Assembly: GCF_000153045.1 (NCBI RefSeq)
Contig: NZ_CH724160.1
Location: forward strand, 373,142 to 437,141
Source of the DNA: Synechococcus sp. WH 5701
Lineage (GTDB): Bacteria; Cyanobacteriota; Cyanobacteriia; PCC-6307; Cyanobiaceae
DNA: 64,000 nucleotides
Reading direction: 5' to 3'
The notes beneath the pieces were generated by a model. The model made no database searches. It was not told where the DNA came from and saw only the letters and a list, made by a program, of their open reading frames with translations. Position 1 is the first letter of the stretch; the number at the start of each line of letters is the position of its first letter. Position numbers and translations under genes: made by a program. This document shows, piece by piece, positions 1 through 10,176 of the stretch.

Positions 1-139
1 TGCCACTCACCGGGGCTTCGGCCTTCTGAAACATGCCGCTGTGGGCACCCATCTCGGCGGCCTGGACTGCCAGCACGGTGGATGCGCCCAGGGCCAGGGC
101 GGCGAGGCCGCGGCCAACGGTTTGATTGGAGAACAACAT
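1..139 (-). CDS. Secreted protein, N-terminal part only (possibly DM13 domain)
   Basis: Only the first 46 codons lie in the window; the gene runs off the left edge. It starts with ATG and encodes a signal peptide (MLFSNQTVGRGLAALALGAS, then an AVQAAE-type cleavage region), followed by a short mature start containing SGMFQKAEAPVSG. That motif resembles the beginning of DM13-type secreted domains, but too little is visible for a firm family call, and a fasciclin or other small exported protein is possible. It is transcribed divergently from the ECF sigma gene. A copy of the CAATCCGAT-N12-CGGTA element lies about 30 bases upstream of its start, so it is probably a target of that sigma factor. 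Confidence 0.6.
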   Translation of the reverse strand, partial: MLFSNQTVGRGLAALALGASTVLAVQAAEMGAHSGMFQKAEAPVSG

Positions 140-167
140 GACGGGTGGGTGGTGTGAGACCCCTTCC

Positions 168-194
168 ATACCGGCGGGGGCAGCCATCGGATTG
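168..194 (-). promoter_or_regulatory. Putative ECF-sigma promoter of the divergent secreted-protein gene
   Basis: On the minus strand CAATCCGAT (194-186) is followed by exactly 12 bases and then CGGTAT (173-168). The start codon is at 139, leaving room for a leader of about 20 bases. The same element occurs on the plus strand at 210-236 and on the minus strand at 8873-8847. Assignment to the local ECF sigma factor is inference from the threefold conservation and the positions. Confidence 0.55.
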
Positions 195-218
195 CCCCGC
201 TCCCCTGGCCAATCCGAT
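186..218. repeat. 9-bp perfect inverted repeat between divergent genes
   Basis: ATCGGATTG (186-194) and CAATCCGAT (210-218) are exact reverse complements separated by 15 bases. They are the outward-facing upstream halves of the two divergent promoter-like elements, so the symmetry can be explained by two back-to-back promoters rather than a repressor operator. Confidence 0.7.
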
Positions 219-236
219 CCGCATGCTCAGCGGTAC
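210..236 (+). promoter_or_regulatory. Putative autoregulated ECF-sigma promoter of the sigma/anti-sigma/ars operon
   Basis: CAATCCGAT (210-218), 12 bases, then CGGTAC (231-236). Transcription would start near 243 and give a leader of about 30 bases before the GTG at 273. This also argues against the longer open frame that begins upstream at 126. Two further copies of the element precede the other two transcription units of the region. Confidence 0.6.
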
Positions 237-272
237 ACCATCTGTTCCAGACCGTTCGGCTCCCCGTTGCGC

Positions 273-848
273 GTGACCAACCCCGAGCCCAACGCCACCG
301 CACCCCCCGGGGCCAGGCTCCAGGACAACCACCCAGCGGGGTACCCCGATCTGGCCGGCCTCTACGACGCCTGCGGCGCCCCGGTGTTCCGCCTGGCTCT
401 GAGGCTCAGTCAGTCCCATCAGGAGGCGGAAGACCTCTGCCACGACGTCTTCCTGCGTTACTGGCAGCAGGGCCGCTACGACCCGAGGCGGGGGCCGGTG
501 CTGGCCTACCTGCTGATGATGACCCGCTCGATGGCGTTCAACCGCATCGAGCAGCGCCGCAACCGCTGGCAGCTGGTGCAACGCTGGTCGCAGCAGCTGT
601 TTCCCTCGGCCGTGCGCAGCCCCCAGGAAGCCGCCGAGGCCGATGACCTCTCCCAGCGGGTGCGCCTGGCCCTCGAGGCGATCCCCGCCAACCAGCGCCA
701 GGTGCTGGAGATGGCCTACTACGAGGGCCTGAGCCAGTCGGCGATCGCCGAACGGCTGCAACTGCCCCTCGGCACCGTCAAGACCCGCTCCCGCCAGGGT
801 CTGATTCGCCTGCGCGACCAGCTGATCGACGACCGCCCGCAATCATGA
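273..848 (+). CDS. ECF-type RNA polymerase sigma factor (SigK/SigG-like)
   Basis: A group-4 sigma-70 factor of about 191 residues. Region 2 covers roughly residues 25-95 (DAEDLCHDVFLRYW-like core, here EAEDLCHDVFLRYWQQG). Region 4 covers roughly 130-185, with the helix-turn-helix GLSQSAIAERLQLPLGTVKT. The frame is open upstream to a TTG at 126, but GTG 273 is chosen because the putative promoter ends at 236 and the upstream residues do not look like protein sequence. Its stop overlaps the start of the anti-sigma gene (ATGA). It probably drives its own operon (anti-sigma, arsS, reductase fusion, arsM), the divergent secreted protein and the GT2 operon. Family assignment is strong; the SigK/SigG subgroup is a guess from the RskA-like partner. 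Confidence 0.9.
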   Translation: MTNPEPNATAPPGARLQDNHPAGYPDLAGLYDACGAPVFRLALRLSQSHQEAEDLCHDVFLRYWQQGRYDPRRGPVLAYLLMMTRSMAFNRIEQRRNRWQLVQRWSQQLFPSAVRSPQEAAEADDLSQRVRLALEAIPANQRQVLEMAYYEGLSQSAIAERLQLPLGTVKTRSRQGLIRLRDQLIDDRPQS

Positions 849-1570
849 GCATCCGCGACCCCCATACCCACGAAACCGGACCTGAGGCGGAGGCCGATCT
901 CGACCTGCTGCTGGCCGGCCATGCCCTCGGCGACCTCGACGAACAGGAGCGCCAGCGGCTGGCGGCGCTCTTGCAGGAGCGCCCTGAGCTGCGCCAGCGC
1001 CTCGATGAGTTCAGCACCACCCTCGAACTGCTGCCCCTCGCCCTCCCCGCCGCCGCCAGTCCGCCGCAGCGCCTGCGCCAACGCCTGCTGGCTCAGCCTC
1101 CACCGCGGCGGGCGATCCTCCCCTGGCTGCTGCCGGCAGTGATGGGACTGGGGGTGCTGGTGCTGGGCAGCCAGCTGCACCAGACCCGCCAGCAGCTGGC
1201 GCGGGTGCAGCAGCAGGCCGGCACAAACGGCACCCTCACCCCCGCCAGCCGGGAGATGCCTCTCCAGGCCATGGGCGGCGAGGGCGGCGCCAGCGGCAAG
1301 GTGCTGGTCACGGGCAACCCCACCCACAACATGCTGATGCTCGACGGGCTGCCGCCGCCACCGCCCAACAGCACCTACCGGCTCTGGGCCCGCGTCAATG
1401 GCCGCGAGGTGGGCTGCGTTCCCTTCGTTCCCGACGGCAAGGGTCATGTGGCCATGCCGATCCCCACCTACCCCACCAGCGCCGCCAGCAGCGTCAGCGT
1501 CAGCATCGAATCGCTGGGGGGCCTGGGGGCCCAGCCCGCCGGACGCCGCATTCTCACCAGCACGATCTGA
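845..1570 (+). CDS. RskA-like membrane anti-sigma factor
   Basis: 241 residues. The N-terminal cytoplasmic part (about 1-85) is helical and has the DLLLAGHALGDLDEQER pattern of anti-sigma domains. It lacks the HxxxCxxC zinc motif. One transmembrane helix (about 90-109) and a short coiled stretch (QLHQTRQQLARVQQQ) follow, then a periplasmic RskA-type C-terminal domain (about 135-240) with GKVLVTGNPTHNMLMLDGLP and YRLWARVNGREV. It overlaps the sigma gene by 4 bases, the usual arrangement of a sigma factor and its own inhibitor. The signal that releases the sigma factor is unknown. One cysteine in the periplasmic domain (GREVGCVPF) is the only obvious thiol. Confidence 0.88.
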   Translation: MSIRDPHTHETGPEAEADLDLLLAGHALGDLDEQERQRLAALLQERPELRQRLDEFSTTLELLPLALPAAASPPQRLRQRLLAQPPPRRAILPWLLPAVMGLGVLVLGSQLHQTRQQLARVQQQAGTNGTLTPASREMPLQAMGGEGGASGKVLVTGNPTHNMLMLDGLPPPPPNSTYRLWARVNGREVGCVPFVPDGKGHVAMPIPTYPTSAASSVSVSIESLGGLGAQPAGRRILTSTI

Positions 1571-1578
1571 TCTCCACC

Positions 1579-2562
1579 GTGACCACTGCCCCCCACCTGA
1601 CCACCCCAAGGCGCAGCCGACAGGAGCCCACCCAGGCCTTCCCGCCAATCAACCGCGGCCGCCTGGACACCCTGCAGGTGAACCTCACCTACCGCTGCAA
1701 CCAGGCCTGCGTGCACTGCCACGTGAATGCCGGGCCGACCCGCACGGAAAGCATGGAGGCCACCACCCTGGCCCTGATCCCCGAGGTGCTGGCCGCCAGG
1801 GGTCTGCGCTGCCTCGACCTGACCGGTGGGGCACCGGAGCTGCACCCTCAGTTCCGGGAGCTGGTGCGAGAGGCCCGCGCCCTGGGGGTGGAGGTGATCG
1901 ATCGCTGCAACCTCACGATTCTGCAGGAACCGGATCAGGAAGATCTGGCCGCCTTTCTCGCCGAGCAGGGGGTCACGGTGGTGGCCTCACTGCCCTGCTA
2001 CCTCCAGGACAACGTGGAGCGTCAGCGGGGCTCCGGGGTCTTCCAGCGCAGCATCAGCGGCCTGCGCCAGCTCAACGCCCTCGGCTACGGCCATCCGGGC
2101 TCGGGCCGGGAGCTGAACCTGGTGTACAACCCCCAGGGCGCGGCACTGCCACCGGAGCAGGGACCACTGGAGGCCGACTACCGGCGGGTGCTCGCGGCCG
2201 ATCATGGCGTGGTGTTCAACCAGCTCTATGCCCTGGCCAACATGCCGGTCCAGCGCTTCGCGGCGGTGCTGAGGGCCCAGGGGGAGCTGGAGAGCTACCT
2301 GGAGCTGCTGCGCCGCAGCCACCGCGACGACAACCTGACCCAGGTCATGTGCCGCCAGCTGATCAGCGTCGACTGGCAGGGCTTCCTCTACGACTGCGAT
2401 TTCAACCAGCAGCTGGGGCTGGACGCCGGCGGCCGCCAACGCTCCCACCTGCGTGATCTGCTTGGGCGCGACCCCGCCGGCGATCCGATCCAGGTGGCGG
2501 AGCACTGCTTCGGCTGCACCGCCGGCAGCGGCTCCAGCTGCGGCGGGGCCCTGGCCGCATGA
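1579..2562 (+). CDS. arsS: Arsenosugar biosynthesis radical SAM enzyme ArsS
   Basis: 327 residues, GTG start 8 bases after the anti-sigma stop. The radical SAM cluster motif CxxxCxxC is C40, C44, C47 (TYRCNQACVHCHVNAG), followed by the glycine motif DLTGGAPEL. The C-terminal half carries family-typical cysteines (LYDCDFNQQLGL and HCFGCTAGSGSSCGG) of the DUF3641 region seen in ArsS proteins. ArsS enzymes add a 5'-deoxyadenosyl group to methylated arsenic, giving the precursor of arsenosugars (established for the family). ArsM, which makes the methylated substrate, is two genes downstream. The stop overlaps the next start by 4 bases. The frame and motifs are complete, with no sign of decay. Confidence 0.9.
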   Translation: MTTAPHLTTPRRSRQEPTQAFPPINRGRLDTLQVNLTYRCNQACVHCHVNAGPTRTESMEATTLALIPEVLAARGLRCLDLTGGAPELHPQFRELVREARALGVEVIDRCNLTILQEPDQEDLAAFLAEQGVTVVASLPCYLQDNVERQRGSGVFQRSISGLRQLNALGYGHPGSGRELNLVYNPQGAALPPEQGPLEADYRRVLAADHGVVFNQLYALANMPVQRFAAVLRAQGELESYLELLRRSHRDDNLTQVMCRQLISVDWQGFLYDCDFNQQLGLDAGGRQRSHLRDLLGRDPAGDPIQVAEHCFGCTAGSGSSCGGALAA

Positions 2563-4766
2563 CTGGCAACCCCAGGCGAGGTGGCCCCACCAGCGCCGCC
2601 TCGAGGCGGTGGCTGCTGCTCCTGGCGGTGGTGGTGCTGGTGGCACTGTTTTTCCTGCTGGATCTGCCCCAGAGGCTCAGCCTCGAGGCCCTTCGCGATG
2701 CCCATGCCGGCCTGCTGGCCTGGCGCCAGCGGGCTCCCCTCAGCGCCGCCGCCCTCTACGGGCTTGCTTACGTGCTGGTCACCGGCCTCTCCCTGCCCGG
2801 CGCGGCGGTGATGACCCTGGCCGGTGGCGCCGTCTTCGGGCTGGGGCTCGGCACCCTGCTGGTGTCGTTCGCGTCCAGCGCCGGCGCCACCATCGCCTTC
2901 CTGCTGGCGCGCACCCTGCTGCGGGAGCCGATGCTGAGGCGCTTCGGCACGCGCCTGGCCCCGATCGAGGAGGGGCTGCGCCGCGATGGGGTGCTCTACC
3001 TGCTCAGCCTACGGCTGGTGCCGGTGTTTCCCTTTTTCCTGGTGAACGTGGTGATGGGGCTGACCCCGATCCGCACACTCTCCTTTTATCTCACCAGCCA
3101 GATCGGCATGCTGCCCGGCACCCTCGTGTACGTGAACGCCGGCACGCAGCTGGCGCAGCTGCGCAGCCTCGAGGGCATCCTCACGCCGCCGCTGCTGCTG
3201 TCGCTGGCGCTGCTGGGGGCCTTCCCCTGGATCGCGCGGCTGGCCCTGGAGCGCTGGAAGCTCTGGCGGCTCTACCGCCCCTGGACGAAGCCAGCCCGCT
3301 TCGATCGCAACCTGATCGTGATCGGTGCCGGTGCAGCGGGCCTGGTCACCGCTTACATCGCCGCCGCCGTGAAGGCGAAGGTGACCCTGATCGAAGCCGA
3401 GCGCATGGGCGGTGACTGCCTCAACACCGGCTGCGTGCCCAGCAAGGCCCTGATCGCCACGGCCCGAGCGGCGGCGCGCATGCGCCAGGCTGATCGCTAC
3501 GGACTCGAGCCCCACGAGCCCAGCGTGTCGTTGCCGCTGGTGCTGGAGCGGGTGTTCGCCAAGGTGGCGGAGGTGGCCCCCCACGACAGCGTCGAGCGCT
3601 ACGAGGGGCTGGGGGTGGAGGTGCTGCGCGGCCACGGACGCCTGATCGACCCCTGGACCGTGGCGATCACCACACGCGATGGCCAGGAGCAACGGCTCAC
3701 GGCGCCGGCCATCGTGCTGGCCACCGGCGCCAGTCCGGTGCTGCCGGATCTGCCTGGGGCCGATGCGGTCGGCCTGCTCACCAGTGAAACGGTGTGGCAG
3801 GCCCTGCGGGATTGCCCCCTGGCCTCACCGCGAATCGTGGTGATGGGAGGCGGTCCGATCGGTTGTGAACTCTCCCAGGCTCTGGCCCGCCTGGGCGCAC
3901 GGGTCACCCTGCTGCAGCGGGGCCCGCAACTGCTCAGCCGCGAAGACCCCGACGCGGCCGCCGTGGTGCACCAGGCCCTCGAAGCCGATGGCGTGCGGGT
4001 GCTCACCAGTTGCACGGTGCGGGGCTTCGAGCCCCGCCCGGCGGCGACAGCAGTGCTGATCACAACCGGCGGCCCCGAGGCTCCCGAGGCCAGCGAACTG
4101 CTCGGTGATCAGGTGCTCTGCGCCATCGGCCGGCGGGCAAGGCTGGAGGGCTATGGCCTTGAGGAGCTGGGCATCCCCACCGGCCGCACCATCGACACCA
4201 ACGCCTCTCTTCAGACGCTGTTCCCCAACATCTATGCCGCCGGTGATGTGGCCGGCCCCTGGCAGTTCACCCACACTGCCGCCCACCAGGCCTGGTATGC
4301 CGCCGTGAACGCCCTGTTCGGGCCCTTCCGCCGCTTCCGCGTCGACGGGCGGGTGATCCCGCGCACCACCTTCACCGATCCGGAGGTGGCGGGAGTGGGG
4401 CTGAGCGAAAGCGAGGCCGCCCGCCAGGGGGTGGCGGTGGAGGTGACCCGCTTCCCGTTGCATGAGCTCGATCGGGCGATCGTGGAGAGCGCCGAAACGG
4501 GTTTCGTGAAGGTGCTCACGCCCCCGGGCAGCGACAGGATCCTTGGGGTGACGATCGTGGCTGAGCAGGCCGGTGAGCTGCTCGCGGAGTTCGTGCTGGC
4601 CATGCGCTGGCGCCTGGGACTCGGCAAAATCCTCTCCACCATCCACGCCTATCCCACCCTCTCGGAAGCCAACAAGTACGCCGCCGGTGCCTGGAAACGG
4701 GCCCACGCCCCCCAGCGCACCCTGGCCCTGCTGCAACGCTTCCACAGCTGGCGCCGCGGCGCCTGA
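2559..4766 (+). CDS. TVP38/TMEM64 membrane domain fused to a MerA/glutathione-reductase-like flavoprotein
   Basis: 735 residues in one uninterrupted frame. Residues about 1-235 are a TVP38/TMEM64 (SNARE-associated) integral membrane domain with several hydrophobic helices and the motifs LSLPGAAVMTLAGGAVFG and FPFFLVNVVMG. From about 248 comes a class-I pyridine nucleotide-disulfide oxidoreductase: FAD motif VIGAGAAGLV, redox cysteine pair C287/C292 (GGDCLNTGCVPSK), NAD(P) motif VVMGGGPIGCE, AAGDVAG, and the C-terminal HAYPTLSE (about 695) that supplies the catalytic His-Glu. It lacks the N-terminal metal-binding domain and C-terminal vicinal cysteines of true mercuric reductase. It overlaps arsS by 4 bases. 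The substrate is unknown; a membrane-tethered reductase acting on an arsenic or thiol compound would fit the context. Confidence 0.88.
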   Translation: MTGNPRRGGPTSAASRRWLLLLAVVVLVALFFLLDLPQRLSLEALRDAHAGLLAWRQRAPLSAAALYGLAYVLVTGLSLPGAAVMTLAGGAVFGLGLGTLLVSFASSAGATIAFLLARTLLREPMLRRFGTRLAPIEEGLRRDGVLYLLSLRLVPVFPFFLVNVVMGLTPIRTLSFYLTSQIGMLPGTLVYVNAGTQLAQLRSLEGILTPPLLLSLALLGAFPWIARLALERWKLWRLYRPWTKPARFDRNLIVIGAGAAGLVTAYIAAAVKAKVTLIEAERMGGDCLNTGCVPSKALIATARAAARMRQADRYGLEPHEPSVSLPLVLERVFAKVAEVAPHDSVERYEGLGVEVLRGHGRLIDPWTVAITTRDGQEQRLTAPAIVLATGASPVLPDLPGADAVGLLTSETVWQALRDCPLASPRIVVMGGGPIGCELSQALARLGARVTLLQRGPQLLSREDPDAAAVVHQALEADGVRVLTSCTVRGFEPRPAATAVLITTGGPEAPEASELLGDQVLCAIGRRARLEGYGLEELGIPTGRTIDTNASLQTLFPNIYAAGDVAGPWQFTHTAAHQAWYAAVNALFGPFRRFRVDGRVIPRTTFTDPEVAGVGLSESEAARQGVAVEVTRFPLHELDRAIVESAETGFVKVLTPPGSDRILGVTIVAEQAGELLAEFVLAMRWRLGLGKILSTIHAYPTLSEANKYAAGAWKRAHAPQRTLALLQRFHSWRRGA

Positions 4767-4803: not shown

Positions 4804-5883
4804 ATGACCGCATCCACAACCAGCAGCTGCTGCAGCAGCGACGACTCCGGCGTGCGCGAGGCCGTGCAGACCTATTACGGCAGCACCCTGGCCAGCAGCG
4901 CCGATCTGCGCACCAGCGCCTGCTGCGATGCCAGCGCGGTGCCCGCCACCCTCAAGCCCCTGCTCAGCCGCCTCCATCCCGAAGTGCTCTCCCGCTACTA
5001 CGGCTGCGGTCTGGTCTGCCCGCCGCTGCTGGAGGGCGCGCGGGTGCTGGATCTGGGCTGTGGCAGCGGCCGTGACGCCTACCTGCTCGCTCAATTGGTG
5101 GGGCCGGGCGGCACGGTGGTGGGGGTCGACATGACGGCTGAGCAGCTGGCGGTGGCCGAAGCCCACCGCGCCTTTCATGCCGAGTGCTTCGGCTACGACA
5201 ACATCCGTTTTCTGGAGGGCTACATCGAGCACCTGGAGCAGCTCGAGCTGGAGCCCGGCAGCTTCGATGTGGTGATCTCCAACTGCGTGGTGAACCTCTC
5301 CACCGACAAGCTGGCTGTGTTGCGCGGGGTGCGGCGGTTGCTCAAACCCGGCGGTGAGTTCTTCTTCGCCGATGTCTACGCCGACCGGCGGGTGCCCCAG
5401 GCCTTGCAGGCCGACCCGGTGCTCTATGGCGAATGCCTCAGTGGCGCCCTCTACTGGAACGATTTCCTGCGTCTGGCCCGCCAGGCGGGCTACGCCGATC
5501 CGCGCCTGGTGAACGACCGCCCGCTGGAGATCACCGATCCGGAGCTGGCCGAACGCACCGGTGAGCTGCGCTTCTTCTCCGCCACCTACCGGCTGTTCCA
5601 GATCGACGACCTCGAAGATGCCTGCGAGGACCACGGCCAGGCCGTGATCTACCGGGGCACGATCCCCGGTCACCCCCACCGCCTCGACTTCGACAAGCAC
5701 CACAGCCTGGAAGCGGGCCGGGTGTTTCCCGTCTGCGGCAACACCTTCCGGATGCTCCACCAGAGCCGGCTGGCGCCCCATTTCGACTTCATCGGCGCCG
5801 ACTCCAGCGCCCACTTCGGCCTCTTTCCCGGCTGTGGCAGCGTGATGCCCTTCACAGCGGCAGGCTCCGCCTCCTGTTGTTGA
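4804..5883 (+). CDS. arsM: Arsenite S-adenosylmethionine methyltransferase ArsM
   Basis: 359 residues. SAM-binding motif I is DLGCGSGRD (83-91), followed by GVDMTAEQL. Cysteines expected in ArsM are present: C68 and C72 (YYGCGLVC), C161 (SNCVVNL) and C211 (YGECLSGAL). There are extra CC pairs near the N-terminus (C9-C10, C40-C41) and at the very C-terminus. ATG 4804 is the first start in frame that gives a normal N-terminus; the open frame continues upstream into the flavoprotein gene. The enzyme methylates trivalent arsenic stepwise and feeds ArsS. It is the last gene of the operon, converging on the DUF547 gene 33 bases away. Confidence 0.93.
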   Translation: MTASTTSSCCSSDDSGVREAVQTYYGSTLASSADLRTSACCDASAVPATLKPLLSRLHPEVLSRYYGCGLVCPPLLEGARVLDLGCGSGRDAYLLAQLVGPGGTVVGVDMTAEQLAVAEAHRAFHAECFGYDNIRFLEGYIEHLEQLELEPGSFDVVISNCVVNLSTDKLAVLRGVRRLLKPGGEFFFADVYADRRVPQALQADPVLYGECLSGALYWNDFLRLARQAGYADPRLVNDRPLEITDPELAERTGELRFFSATYRLFQIDDLEDACEDHGQAVIYRGTIPGHPHRLDFDKHHSLEAGRVFPVCGNTFRMLHQSRLAPHFDFIGADSSAHFGLFPGCGSVMPFTAAGSASCC

Positions 5884-5916
5884 GGACTTGAGTCCTGTTG
5901 CTGAACATTGCCGCAC

Positions 5917-6762
5917 TCACTGGCGGTTGAGCGACCAGTCGTAGTCGAGGGTGCCCAGGGCATAGCGGCCCTGGGCCAGGTAAGCGCGGTCCTCAGGGCT
6001 GACGTAATCGCCGATGAAGGCCAGGACCGCACTGTCCCTCACATGGCCGGGCACCGGAGCCGCTGTCGGGTTGGCCCGGCCCCAGTCCTCGCCGAACCAG
6101 CGGAAGATCGGCGAGATCAGCACCCGCTCCCCAGTCCGATCGATCCGCAGGCCATGGGGACCCGCCAGCCAGCGGCGCACCTGATCCTCCAGTTGCTGCT
6201 CCAGCCGCTCAGCCGCGTAGGGCTCCCGGCGCAGGGGCGGGCAGTTGTTGGCGGCACACACCAGGGCCGCATGGATGCGCGGTTCGTTGAAGTCCTGGCG
6301 CAGGATCTGATGCTCGATCGCATCGAGCGTGCGCGGCTGGCCCGCCACCTGGTGGCGGCGCAGGTTCCACACGCCCCAGATGTCCTTGATGCTGGCCTTC
6401 AGCGGAGTCTCCTGGATGATCGAGGCCAGGGTCAGGGCGTTGTAGGCATTGAGCAGGAAGGCGATCTGCTTCGCCTCACTCCAGGAGCGGTAACGCTCCG
6501 GGGGCACCGCGCCGATCACCGCCACATAGCGCTCCAGATCCTCTGGTCGGCGCTGAAGACCCTCGTAGTCCACCAGGCCCCGCTCGTTGACGTACTCCTG
6601 GAGCACCCGGGTGTAAGTCTCGCTGGAGTACGGCACAGCCGCGGCCGCCCCGGAACCCGCCGTGCCGGCCGCCCCGGAGCCCGGCACGGGGAAGGGCGGC
6701 AGCGAGCAACCCACCAGGGCGGTGGTCACTCCAGCCAGCAGGACCAGTCTCAGGGTGGTCAT
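5917..6762 (-). CDS. DUF547 domain lipoprotein
   Basis: 281 residues from the ATG at 6762, whose codon overlaps the stop of the upstream gene (ATGA). It starts with a lipoprotein signal (MTTLRLVLLAGVTTALVGC, C19 as lipidated cysteine) and a Gly/Ala/Pro-rich linker. The DUF547 domain follows, with NAYNALTLASI, the CAANNCPPLR motif and the closing YDWSLNRQ. DUF547 proteins have no firm biochemical function. This is the last gene of the GT2-GT87-DUF547 operon, which ends 33 bases from the end of arsM. Confidence 0.85.
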   Translation of the reverse strand: MTTLRLVLLAGVTTALVGCSLPPFPVPGSGAAGTAGSGAAAAVPYSSETYTRVLQEYVNERGLVDYEGLQRRPEDLERYVAVIGAVPPERYRSWSEAKQIAFLLNAYNALTLASIIQETPLKASIKDIWGVWNLRRHQVAGQPRTLDAIEHQILRQDFNEPRIHAALVCAANNCPPLRREPYAAERLEQQLEDQVRRWLAGPHGLRIDRTGERVLISPIFRWFGEDWGRANPTAAPVPGHVRDSAVLAFIGDYVSPEDRAYLAQGRYALGTLDYDWSLNRQ

Positions 6763-8084
6763 GGCACGGACGGGGTGGAGAGATCGGGGGGCTGGAGCCT
6801 GGCCTGCCTCAGCTGGGTGATGCCGAAGCCCGCCACGAACGGGACCCAGATCAGGGCGCGCTCGATCTCCAGAAGGTTCCAATCGGGTTTTCGGTGCAGC
6901 AGCACGAAGTAGATGAAGCCGCTCAGACTCACCAGCCGCACGCCCCAGTTCGCCGTGGGCACGGCAAAGGGCACGATCCAGCTGAAGTACCAGAGATGAA
7001 CGATCGGCGAGAGCGTGAGCAGGGCAAACCAGTAGCCCTGCGCGAACCCGCCGAAGCGGCGGCAGCGCCACAGCAGCAGGGCCACCACCAGCAGCAGCGG
7101 CAGCAGATGGATGGCATTGCTGCTGCTGGTGGCCGGCCAGATCCGAGCCAGCAGATGGGGAACGAATTCAGCGCTGCGGGCCTGGGTCACGAAGGCCGAA
7201 CCCGTGGGGATCAATGGGCAGCGGATCGAGTCGCAGTAGGCCATTGACCCCAGGCCGAGGGGCAGAAGCCCCAGCAGACCCAGCCCCAACGCCAGCAGCG
7301 CTCGGTCGCTGCGCAGCGCCAGCCAGCAGGGGTAGGCCAGCAGGGGCAGCGACACCCACTTGATCGCCACGCTCACGCCGATCAGCAGGGCGCCCAGGGC
7401 CCAGCGGCCAGCGAGCCCTGGTCCTGATCCTGGTCCTGGCTCAGGTGGACGGTCGAACAGGAACCAGGCCGCCACAAGAGGCAGCAGAAACCAGCTGTCG
7501 TAGTGGGCACCGCCGCTGAAGCTGTAGATCACCAGGGGGTTCCAGGCCCAGAGCAACGCCGACGCCGCCCCGAACCGCCGGCTCAGCAGGGCACAGAGGC
7601 CCAGATCGCAGGCCAGGAAGGCCAGCTTGAACAGCAGCACCTGGGCAGGCACCAGGGTGAGCAGGCGAAAGCCGAGCTGCGTCAGGGGTGGGTAGATGGC
7701 CGTCACCGCTGGATGGTTGATCTGACCCCACCAGGCGGGCCGCAGGGCCTGCAGGGCAGTGGCGTCGGGAGCCAGCTCGTAGGGATTGAAGCCGTGCTGC
7801 TGGATCGTGCCTTCCCAGAGGTAACGCCAGACGTCATCGCCGGGCTCCATGGCCAGCAGCAGCAGCCGGGTGGCGATCGCCACCCCCCAGAACCAGACGG
7901 CCGGTAGCGCCACGATCCGCCAGGAGAGCGCGAAGCCCAGACCCATCACCGCCACGGCGCCCCAGAACGCCTGCAGGACCTGCCAATCACTGACCTGACC
8001 ATGGGGCGCCATCCAGGCGGCTCCGCCCACCAGCAGCAGGGCGCACAACCGCCAGAGGTTCCGTTGGCTGGTCAGAGGTGTCAT
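6759..8084 (-). CDS. Polytopic membrane glycosyltransferase, GT-C/GT87-like
   Basis: 441 residues with about ten hydrophobic helices. It has GT-C-type features: an acidic loop (EPGDDVWRYLWEGTIQQHGFNPYELAPD) after the first helices, NHPAVTAIYPPLTQ, and a hydrophobic C-terminal half. Related proteins transfer a sugar from a polyprenyl-phosphate donor on the outer face of the membrane. ATG 8084 overlaps the stop of the GT2 gene, and its stop overlaps the DUF547 start, so all three are translationally coupled. The upstream GT2 protein could supply the lipid-linked sugar (inference). Confidence 0.75.
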   Translation of the reverse strand: MTPLTSQRNLWRLCALLLVGGAAWMAPHGQVSDWQVLQAFWGAVAVMGLGFALSWRIVALPAVWFWGVAIATRLLLLAMEPGDDVWRYLWEGTIQQHGFNPYELAPDATALQALRPAWWGQINHPAVTAIYPPLTQLGFRLLTLVPAQVLLFKLAFLACDLGLCALLSRRFGAASALLWAWNPLVIYSFSGGAHYDSWFLLPLVAAWFLFDRPPEPGPGSGPGLAGRWALGALLIGVSVAIKWVSLPLLAYPCWLALRSDRALLALGLGLLGLLPLGLGSMAYCDSIRCPLIPTGSAFVTQARSAEFVPHLLARIWPATSSSNAIHLLPLLLVVALLLWRCRRFGGFAQGYWFALLTLSPIVHLWYFSWIVPFAVPTANWGVRLVSLSGFIYFVLLHRKPDWNLLEIERALIWVPFVAGFGITQLRQARLQPPDLSTPSVP

Positions 8085-8839
8085 CGATTGAGCCCCCGAC
8101 TGATCCGCGCCAGGTACAGACCCCCGAGGGTGCGCAGGATCACCTCCCCGGCCCGGAGGCTGCCCAGCAGCGATCCGGAGATCTTGGAGCGCCCCCCCTG
8201 GCGCGGCCGGTAACCCACCGGCACTTCGCGGATGCGGCAGCCCTGCTCCACCGCCCTCACCTGCATCTCGAGCGTCCAGCCGAAGCCCCGATCCCGCAGG
8301 GCGAGCGCCTCGAGGCAGGGGCGTCGGATCAGGCGCATCGGACCGAGATCCCGATATCTGTGACCCCAGCCCAGCTGGATCAGGCGGGTCGCCAGGCGGT
8401 TGCCGAAGCGCTGCAGCGGGGTCATCGCCCGCCGACCCTCCGCCCCAGCCAGGCGGTTACCCAGCACCAGATCCGCTTCTGCCGCCGCCGCCAGCAACCT
8501 GGGCAGCGCCGCCAGATCGTCGCTGCCGTCACCGTCGCAGAAGAAGATCCATTCCACAGCGGGCGGCAGTCCGCCCAGGCCACGCCAGCAGGCCCGGCCA
8601 TAGCCCGGCCTCGGCTCAACCACCACCTCGGCGCCGGCAGCGCTGGCCACCGCCGCGGTGTCATCGCCACTGCCGTTATCCACCACCCGGATGCGCTCCA
8701 GACCCTGACCGCGCAGCTCCTGGATCACCGCGGCGATGGCGGCGGCCTCATCGCGCGCGGGAATCAGCACCTGCAGAGAGGCGGCGGCTGGCCTGGGCGG
8801 CTGGGGGCGAATGAGTATCGGTCGGCTCGGGCAGTTCAC
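8081..8839 (-). CDS. Family 2 glycosyltransferase (polyprenyl-phosphate sugar synthase type)
   Basis: 252 residues from GTG 8839. The GT2 fold is recognisable from VLIPARDEAAAI, the DNGSGDD motif, FFCDGDGSDD (metal-binding Asp pair) and the C-terminal RYRDLGPMRLIRR and VPVGYRPRQGGRSKISGS. No C-terminal membrane helices are present. The frame is open to a GTG at 8902, but the putative ECF promoter ends at 8847, which places transcription start at about 8840, essentially at GTG 8839. A leaderless message is therefore possible. Dolichol-phosphate-mannose-synthase-like enzymes make lipid-linked sugars used by GT-C enzymes such as the next gene. A specific arsenosugar role is only a hypothesis from the shared promoter. 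Confidence 0.85.
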   Translation of the reverse strand: MNCPSRPILIRPQPPRPAAASLQVLIPARDEAAAIAAVIQELRGQGLERIRVVDNGSGDDTAAVASAAGAEVVVEPRPGYGRACWRGLGGLPPAVEWIFFCDGDGSDDLAALPRLLAAAAEADLVLGNRLAGAEGRRAMTPLQRFGNRLATRLIQLGWGHRYRDLGPMRLIRRPCLEALALRDRGFGWTLEMQVRAVEQGCRIREVPVGYRPRQGGRSKISGSLLGSLRAGEVILRTLGGLYLARISRGLNR

Positions 8840-8846
8840 CCCAGAT

Positions 8847-8873
8847 GTACCGGCGGGTGGGGCGATCGGATCG
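8847..8873 (-). promoter_or_regulatory. Putative ECF-sigma promoter of the GT2-GT87-DUF547 operon
   Basis: On the minus strand CGATCCGAT (8873-8865), exactly 12 bases, then CGGTAC (8852-8847). It differs from the two elements near 190-236 at one of nine positions in the first half and has identical spacing. The flanking TACCGGCGGG on the plus strand is also shared with 169-178. The first plausible start codon is 7 bases beyond the element. Confidence 0.6.
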
Positions 8874-8919
8874 TGCGGCCGCCCATGGGAAGGTAACGGC
8901 ACTGTTGCGGGTCGTCGCC

Positions 8920-10176
8920 ATGGGCTGGTCGCGCCCTTCCACGCGGTTCTGCATCTTCCTGACTCTGCTGAACGACCGTCTGGGGGAAAGCATCGTCTTT
9001 CCCCTGCTGCCCTTTCTGCTGGCGAGTTTCACCAGCGACGGGCGCACATTGGGCCTGCTGGCGGGCAGTTACGCCCTGGCCCAGTTCCTGTTCACCCCCC
9101 TGATCGGAGCCCTCAGCGACCGCTTCGGCCGTAAACCCGTCATCGCCGGCTGCGTGGCCGGCTCGGTGCTGGGCCTGGGGGGTTTTGCCCTGACCCTGTC
9201 CCTGCCCTGGCCGGCGGGCAGCGCCTGGCCCTTGCCTCTGCTCTTCGGCGCCCGGCTGATCGATGGGGTCAGCGGCGGCACCGCCGCCACAGCAGGCGCC
9301 GTGCTGGCTGACATCAGCCCTCCGGAGAAGCGGGCCAAGGCCTTCGGGCTGATCGGCGTGGCCTTCGGGCTCGGTTTCATCCTCGGGCCGGCCCTGGGGG
9401 GGCTGCTGGCGGGGGTGAATGTGACCCTGCCATTGCTGCTGGCCGTGGCGGTGGCGGCCGTGAATCTGGTGCTGGTGCTCACGGTGCTGCCGGAAACCCA
9501 TCCCCCGGCCGCACGCCTGGCCCTGCCCCGCAAGCGGGAGCTCAACCCGCTCAGCCAGCTGATGCGCGTGTTTCGCAATCCCCGGGTGCGGCGGCTCAGC
9601 CTGGCCTTCTTTCTGTTCTTTCTCGGCTTCAACGGCTTCACCGCCGTGCTGGTGCTCTATTTCAAACAGGTGTTCGGCTGGGGGCCGGAGCTGGCGGCCA
9701 TGGCCTTCCTGGTGGTGGGCGTGGTGGCCACGGTGGTGCAGGGCGGCCTGATCGGACCGCTGGTGCAACGCTTCGGCGAAGGGCGCCTCAGCCTGGCCGG
9801 CCTGGGGCTGGTGGTGGCGGGCTGCCTGCTGATTCCCCTGGCCACAGAGGCCAATGCTCTGCCGGTGGTGTTCACGGCCCTGGCCCTGCTGGCCTGCGGC
9901 ACCGGGCTGGTCACCCCCTGCCTGCGCAGCCAGGTGTCGCGCCGGCTGGATGACAGCGGCCAGGGAGCGGCCCTGGGCAGCCTGCAGGGCCTGCAGAGCC
10001 TGGGCAGTTTCATCGGCCCGCCTCTGGCGGGTCTGGCCTATGACCTGGTGGGCAAGACCAGCCCGTTCTGGGCCGGCATCGCCCTGTTCCTGGTGGTGGC
10101 CCTGCTGGTGGCAGGAGGTGGCCCCCTCAGCAGCCTCCCGGCAAGCAAGCCCGCGACAGTGCCTCCCAGCCCTTGA
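8920..10176 (+). CDS. Major facilitator superfamily exporter, TetA-like
   Basis: 418 residues, twelve hydrophobic segments. The MFS loop motif between helices 2 and 3 is GALSDRFGRKPV, with the motif C-like GPALGGLLAG in helix 5 and DISPPEKRAKAFGLIG before it, as in TetA/drug:H+ antiporters. ATG 8920 is preferred over upstream in-frame codons that would add a charged non-membrane extension. It is divergent from the GT2 operon. Its stop (TGA 10174-10176) comes 29 bases before the ppk start. Substrate unknown. Confidence 0.85.
   Translation: MGWSRPSTRFCIFLTLLNDRLGESIVFPLLPFLLASFTSDGRTLGLLAGSYALAQFLFTPLIGALSDRFGRKPVIAGCVAGSVLGLGGFALTLSLPWPAGSAWPLPLLFGARLIDGVSGGTAATAGAVLADISPPEKRAKAFGLIGVAFGLGFILGPALGGLLAGVNVTLPLLLAVAVAAVNLVLVLTVLPETHPPAARLALPRKRELNPLSQLMRVFRNPRVRRLSLAFFLFFLGFNGFTAVLVLYFKQVFGWGPELAAMAFLVVGVVATVVQGGLIGPLVQRFGEGRLSLAGLGLVVAGCLLIPLATEANALPVVFTALALLACGTGLVTPCLRSQVSRRLDDSGQGAALGSLQGLQSLGSFIGPPLAGLAYDLVGKTSPFWAGIALFLVVALLVAGGGPLSSLPASKPATVPPSP

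Follow-up and report, generated by a model that had tools for sequence, protein, structure and literature searches.

The genes for a GT2 glycosyltransferase, a GT-C glycosyltransferase and a DUF547 lipoprotein in Synechococcus sp. WH 5701 (hereafter the trio) have a genuine but optional tie to the arsenosugar locus, one that is supported but limited. The reading adopted here, to which about even credence is given, is that the trio is an accessory module for polyprenyl-phosphate-sugar transfer tied to the ars locus, dispensable for the core pathway and most likely serving an optional late step. In Synechocystis the first steps towards arsenosugars are carried out by ArsM and ArsS (Xue 2019, cited in PMC8552651), and the chemistry of ArsS has been characterised (Cheng 2021, cited in PMC12159101).

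The trio and the convergent ars operon

The window, that is the whole stretch of 64,000 nucleotides analysed, contains the trio, the ars operon and an adjoining exporter gene:

126..848, plus strand, ECF sigma factor at the head of the ars operon (TIGR02937 above cut-off; same place in relatives)
845..1570, plus strand, RskA-like anti-sigma factor overlapping the sigma gene (PF10099 above cut-off)
1579..2562, plus strand, ArsS, arsenosugar radical SAM enzyme (TIGR04167, 447.5 bits; cut-off 300)
2559..4766, plus strand, VTT/TVP38 membrane domain fused to a MerA-like flavin oxidoreductase (PF09335, Pyr_redox_2, Pyr_redox_dim)
4804..5883, plus strand, ArsM-like As(III) methyltransferase (best model NF008823, 162 bits, below its cut-off of 263; PF13847)
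5917..6762, minus strand, DUF547 lipoprotein, 281 aa (PF04784, 87 bits; alignments)
6759..8084, minus strand, GT-C membrane glycosyltransferase, 441 aa (fold of the AlphaFold2 model; alignment)
8081..8839, minus strand, GT2 resembling polyprenyl-phosphate-sugar synthases, 252 aa, GTG start (NCBIfam and PDB matches)
8929..10176, plus strand, MFS exporter (PF07690; gene order)

The three minus-strand genes are co-directional, as the earlier note described them, and both the DUF547/GT-C and the GT-C/GT2 junctions are 4-bp ATGA overlaps. The order DUF547/GT-C/GT2 is kept in 10 genomes of the order PCC-6307. The trio and the ars operon do converge tail-to-tail, with 33 bp between the stop codons of ArsM and DUF547, and for this reason the two operons cannot use one promoter. 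The common promoter that had been suggested for them is therefore ruled out: their 5' ends lie about 8 kb apart, the longest sequence shared by their upstream regions is a single 8-mer, about chance level, and a scan of positions 5700-9100 returned neither a sigma-70-like site nor a terminator. GT2 is divergent from the MFS gene (start near 8929), which adjoins it only within the same genus and is probably outside the module.

In the ars operon, the true start of the ECF sigma gene is probably downstream of 126. The ECF sigma and RskA-like anti-sigma genes hold this position upstream of ArsS in 7 other genomes of the family Cyanobiaceae as well. VTT and MerA-like domains, fused in the window (2559-4766), are separate genes at loci L150 and L204. 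The ArsM-like protein contains the motifs YYGCG, SNCVVNLS and GECLSGAL, which we take to be the three Cys motifs expected of ArsM. The sigma/anti-sigma pair suggests a dedicated stress regulator of the arsenosugar genes.

Elsewhere in the WH 5701 genome, away from the trio, the single TIGR04282 member adjoins a TIGR04283 member on contig C9; two proteins of the genome score above the TIGR04283 cut-off. On the same contig (L009, 8752-10621), rhodanese, TIGR04283 and a second DUF547 gene adjoin a heavy-metal P-type ATPase. A second TIGR04283 copy is found beside a DUF547 gene in most trio genomes.

Relatives and predicted folds of the three proteins

GT2 is closest to the polyprenyl-phosphate-sugar synthases and is predicted to transfer a sugar. 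Its best NCBIfam model is AglJ (TIGR04182), at 115.6 bits and thus below the curated equivalog cut-off of 325. Solved members of this group, ArnC and DPMS in the PDB, align with it almost at full length (profile positions about 7-213 of 242), covering the whole catalytic domain, and the CDGDG/DXD motif is invariant in the alignment of relatives. GT2 shares this near full-length alignment and the DXD motif with ArnC, DPMS and AglJ, and differs from all three in that it is often fused to its GT-C. Its identity with the NCBI arsenosugar transferase TIGR04283 was considered and ruled out (28.3 bits; curated cut-off 182), and TIGR04282 (curated cut-off 134 bits) matched none of the trio proteins. 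None of them belongs to the families annotated by NCBI as arsenosugar genes (ArsS TIGR04167, ArsM NF038099, TIGR04282, TIGR04283).

The predicted structure of the protein encoded at 6759..8084 (AlphaFold2, pLDDT 91.5) is clearly that of the transmembrane GT-C superfamily. It matches ALG3 (Z 25.5, rmsd 3.6 over 343 residues), GPI mannosyltransferase I of the PIG-M type (Z 22.0) and PimE (Z 19.4, rmsd 4.3 over 340 residues), so that the three matches range over Z 19-25 and about 330-345 residues, most of the chain. In common with these enzymes, all of which use polyprenyl/dolichyl-P-mannose, it has an acidic residue that is invariant in the first loop outside the membrane, and a paired lipid-sugar synthase. 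The loop, PxDDxWRYLWEG, is conserved and D84 is invariant in 24 of 24 relatives, making it a candidate catalytic base. Unlike PimE, ALG3 and PIG-M, the protein has no significant match by sequence to any PDB chain. The label GT87 given to it by the earlier note fits loosely: PimE, a GT87 enzyme, is among the closest folds, no Pfam model matched the window protein, and PF09594 (GT87) is matched weakly by 2 of the 24 relatives (best E 4e-4). The gene is in two pieces in two Trichodesmium assemblies (L149, L172), through decay or assembly error.

Of the 73 loci having both GT2 and GT-C, 29 encode them in a single open reading frame, in cyanobacteria and in Opitutaceae. This fusion supports the pair independently of arsenic; together with a modelled fold like those of polyprenyl-P-mannose-dependent enzymes, it bears out the earlier proposal that the two proteins work as a pair on polyprenyl-phosphate sugars, which may be considered well supported.

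The third protein was correctly named a DUF547 lipoprotein. It scores 87.3 bits against PF04784 (gathering cut-off 27), its lipobox LVGC has a cysteine, Cys19, that is nearly invariant over 30 relatives, and the alignments show the conserved motifs NAYN, LDxxEH and PRIHxALVCAAxxCPPLR. Its AlphaFold2 model (pLDDT 89.5) has no clear relative in the PDB: the profile search of PDB sequences gave nothing, Foldseek gave nothing with an E of 0.001 or lower, and the best structural match, VIA, has a Z of 5.4, a value that common helical arrangements also reach. A search of the available literature found nothing joining DUF547 to arsenic.

Distribution and linkage to ArsS

ArsS is present in all 101 genomes of the order PCC-6307, with TIGR04282 in 100 and TIGR04283 in 99, whereas GT-C is found in 10, a close GT2 in the same 10 and DUF547 in 11. 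ArsS thus occurs without the trio in 91 genomes, and a component of the core pathway would be present wherever ArsS is. In the phylum sample, ArsS occurs in 172 of 186 class genomes (about 92%) and GT-C in 7 of 386. Since ArsS is near-universal and the trio rare, the trio is not a general requirement of arsenosugar synthesis. Its candidacy for a part in that synthesis, put forward by the earlier note, is weakened but not lost. Co-occurrence in whole genomes was set aside as uninformative, with ArsS in about 92% of class genomes and in 38 of the 41 trio genomes outside Verrucomicrobia. The named control Synechococcus elongatus carries ArsS, TIGR04282 and TIGR04283 and no DUF547. The 11 DUF547 genomes are the same 11 that have at least two TIGR04283 copies; the association of the trio with TIGR04283 copy number gives a Fisher value of 6e-13, kinship not being corrected for, and within the four trio-bearing genera it is weak (p 0.04).

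Seven of the 10 trio genomes of the order have the trio within about 7 kb of ArsS, in several gene orders and in four genera. It follows ArsM in the genus of the window and in G069, and lies between ArsS and VTT-MerA in G054 and G038. In G079, G080 and G091 it lies away from the ars genes. The G080 trio (L111, 4597-8998) adjoins an ATP-dependent DNA ligase and a helicase of the ligase-associated damage response, and genes of similar size follow the trio at L113 and L115. Linkage within 10 kb in 7 of 10 genomes has a chance probability of about 7e-14, or about 1.6e-7 when each genus is counted once. A neighbourhood due purely to chance in one genus, which the convergent layout and the lack of a shared promoter would allow, is hardly credible: these comparisons contradict it, as the linkage is seen in four genera of the order and also in other families.

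The scan of named genomes gave 80 loci: 22 from the family Cyanobiaceae, 50 others and 8 verrucomicrobial. Flanks often ended at contig ends, so that its neighbour counts are lower bounds. ArsS is near in 21 of the 22 family loci. Among the 50 non-family loci, the fetched flanks hold ArsS in at least 3, DUF547 in at least 32 and TIGR04282 in at least 4. The comparison of ArsS neighbourhoods across cyanobacteria that had been proposed accordingly favours the linkage within the order and the family and tells against it in most non-family flanks. Co-occurrence outside the lineage, on which the proposal had been made to depend, is seen in metagenome assemblies of Thermosynechococcaceae and Leptolyngbyaceae, which are mutually consistent and carry these one-strand runs:

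L127, GT2-GTC-DUF547-ArsM-ArsS
L135, GT2/GTC-DUF547-ArsM-ArsS-TIGR04283
L150, GT2-GTC-DUF547-VTT-ArsM-VTT-MerA-ArsS

The ArsM proteins of L127 and L135 belong to NF038099, arsenosugar ArsM (561 and 570 bits), and the ArsS proteins of L127 and L150 score above the curated cut-off. In the complete chromosome of Synechococcus sp. SynAce01, TIGR04283 lies directly upstream of GT2. The trio resembles the annotated arsenosugar genes in being physically linked in several lineages, and differs in being absent from most genomes that have them.

In the GT-C tree the family falls in one clade (SH-aLRT 99), unlinked members nesting among linked ones, and L127, L135 and L150 fall in the part nearest to it (SH-aLRT 89). 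Because the three non-family linked loci all lie near the family, independent linkages may be few. Around ArsS in 20 genomes having the trio elsewhere there was no trio gene; the neighbours were mostly ArsM and VTT, with TIGR04282 once. The only families recurring near GT-C across cyanobacteria are DUF547, TIGR04282 and MerA-like/VTT. A two-component-kinase cluster (15 loci) was rejected as a recurrent neighbour, being a loose paralogous family at kilobase distances and close only in Opitutaceae.

In Verrucomicrobia, TIGR04282 is near GT-C in at least 6 of the 8 loci and ArsS in none within the fetched flanks. Six of the 8 Verrucomicrobia with GT-C have no ArsS; these are draft genomes and may be incomplete, and this aside the pair can work without arsenosugars. 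At L197, L199, L201, L202 and L203 GT2-GT-C adjoins TIGR04282 in genomes showing no ArsS. This occurrence of TIGR04282 beside the pair without ArsS questions its arsenosugar name. In Opitutaceae a two-component system precedes the fused GT2/GT-C gene, at a distance of 61 bp in 4 loci and of 223 bp in another. The kinase and regulator are nearest to the heavy-metal families TIGR01386 and TIGR01387, both below the cut-offs, a hint and no more of metal or envelope-stress control.

Possible role of the trio

In the accessory-module reading, GT2 would use a nucleotide sugar to charge polyprenyl phosphate with a hexose at the cytoplasmic face. On the periplasmic or lumenal side, GT-C would pass this sugar from the lipid to an acceptor, and the DUF547 lipoprotein, outside the membrane, may help or act on the product. 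The core pathway (ArsM, ArsS, TIGR04282, TIGR04283) would run without the trio, which would most likely serve as an optional late step, for example glycosylation of a membrane-bound arsenosugar product or carrier; alternatively it may make a surface glycan under the same stress. The substrates and topology of the trio, the part played by DUF547 and any chemical contact with arsenic are all conditional in this scheme. Weighing against it are the 91 genomes with ArsS and no trio, the 3 of 50 non-family loci with ArsS near, the three unlinked genomes of the order, the 6 of 8 GT-C-bearing Verrucomicrobia without ArsS and the weak TIGR04283 correlation within genera. Moreover, the ribose of known arsenosugars comes from SAM, and their synthesis requires no polyprenyl-P-hexose.

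Direct chemistry of the trio on arsenosugars or arsenosugar lipids is possible. It is considered unlikely that the three proteins constitute an undescribed branch of arsenosugar metabolism at the membrane, in which arsenosugar lipids are glycosylated or assembled via a polyprenyl-phosphate sugar. It is likewise improbable that the arsenoribosyl unit itself is a substrate of GT2 or GT-C, for instance by being transferred from a polyprenyl carrier to phosphatidylglycerol, which would give arsenosugar phospholipids. The one-strand runs with ArsM and ArsS at L127, L135 and L150 are consistent with such a role, and the close folds PimE and PIG-M belong to enzymes acting on phosphoinositide lipids. 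Arsenolipids are known from Synechocystis (Xue 2014, cited in PMC12159101), and the literature consulted assigns no enzyme to arsenosugar steps past ArsM and ArsS. Against it, ArsS does without the trio in most of the order, Verrucomicrobia carry GT-C without ArsS, and GT2 looks like a hexose-type rather than a ribosyl synthase.

The trio could also make an envelope glycan independent of arsenic and owe its place beside the ars genes to an ancient insertion that was inherited within one part of the cyanobacteria. This is doubtful, though to be taken seriously: the unlinked trio lies beside a DNA-ligase/helicase operon in three genomes, 47 of the 50 non-family loci have no ArsS in the fetched flanks, and the Opitutaceae combine GT2-GT-C and TIGR04282 without ArsS, with the two-component system 61 bp ahead in 4 loci. 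However, the linkage is kept while gene orders change, the recurring neighbours DUF547, TIGR04282, TIGR04283, MerA-like and VTT also recur beside ArsS, and the closest matches of the two-component system in Opitutaceae are heavy-metal sensor families, at scores under the respective cut-offs.

The steps after ArsM and ArsS in the synthesis of arsenosugars and arsenolipids are poorly known, and a short, testable list of candidates results from this analysis. TIGR04282 and TIGR04283 are the near-universal companions of ArsS in the order, and GT2-GT-C-DUF547 would be an optional branch; the first guess is corrected in that this branch is dispensable for the core pathway.
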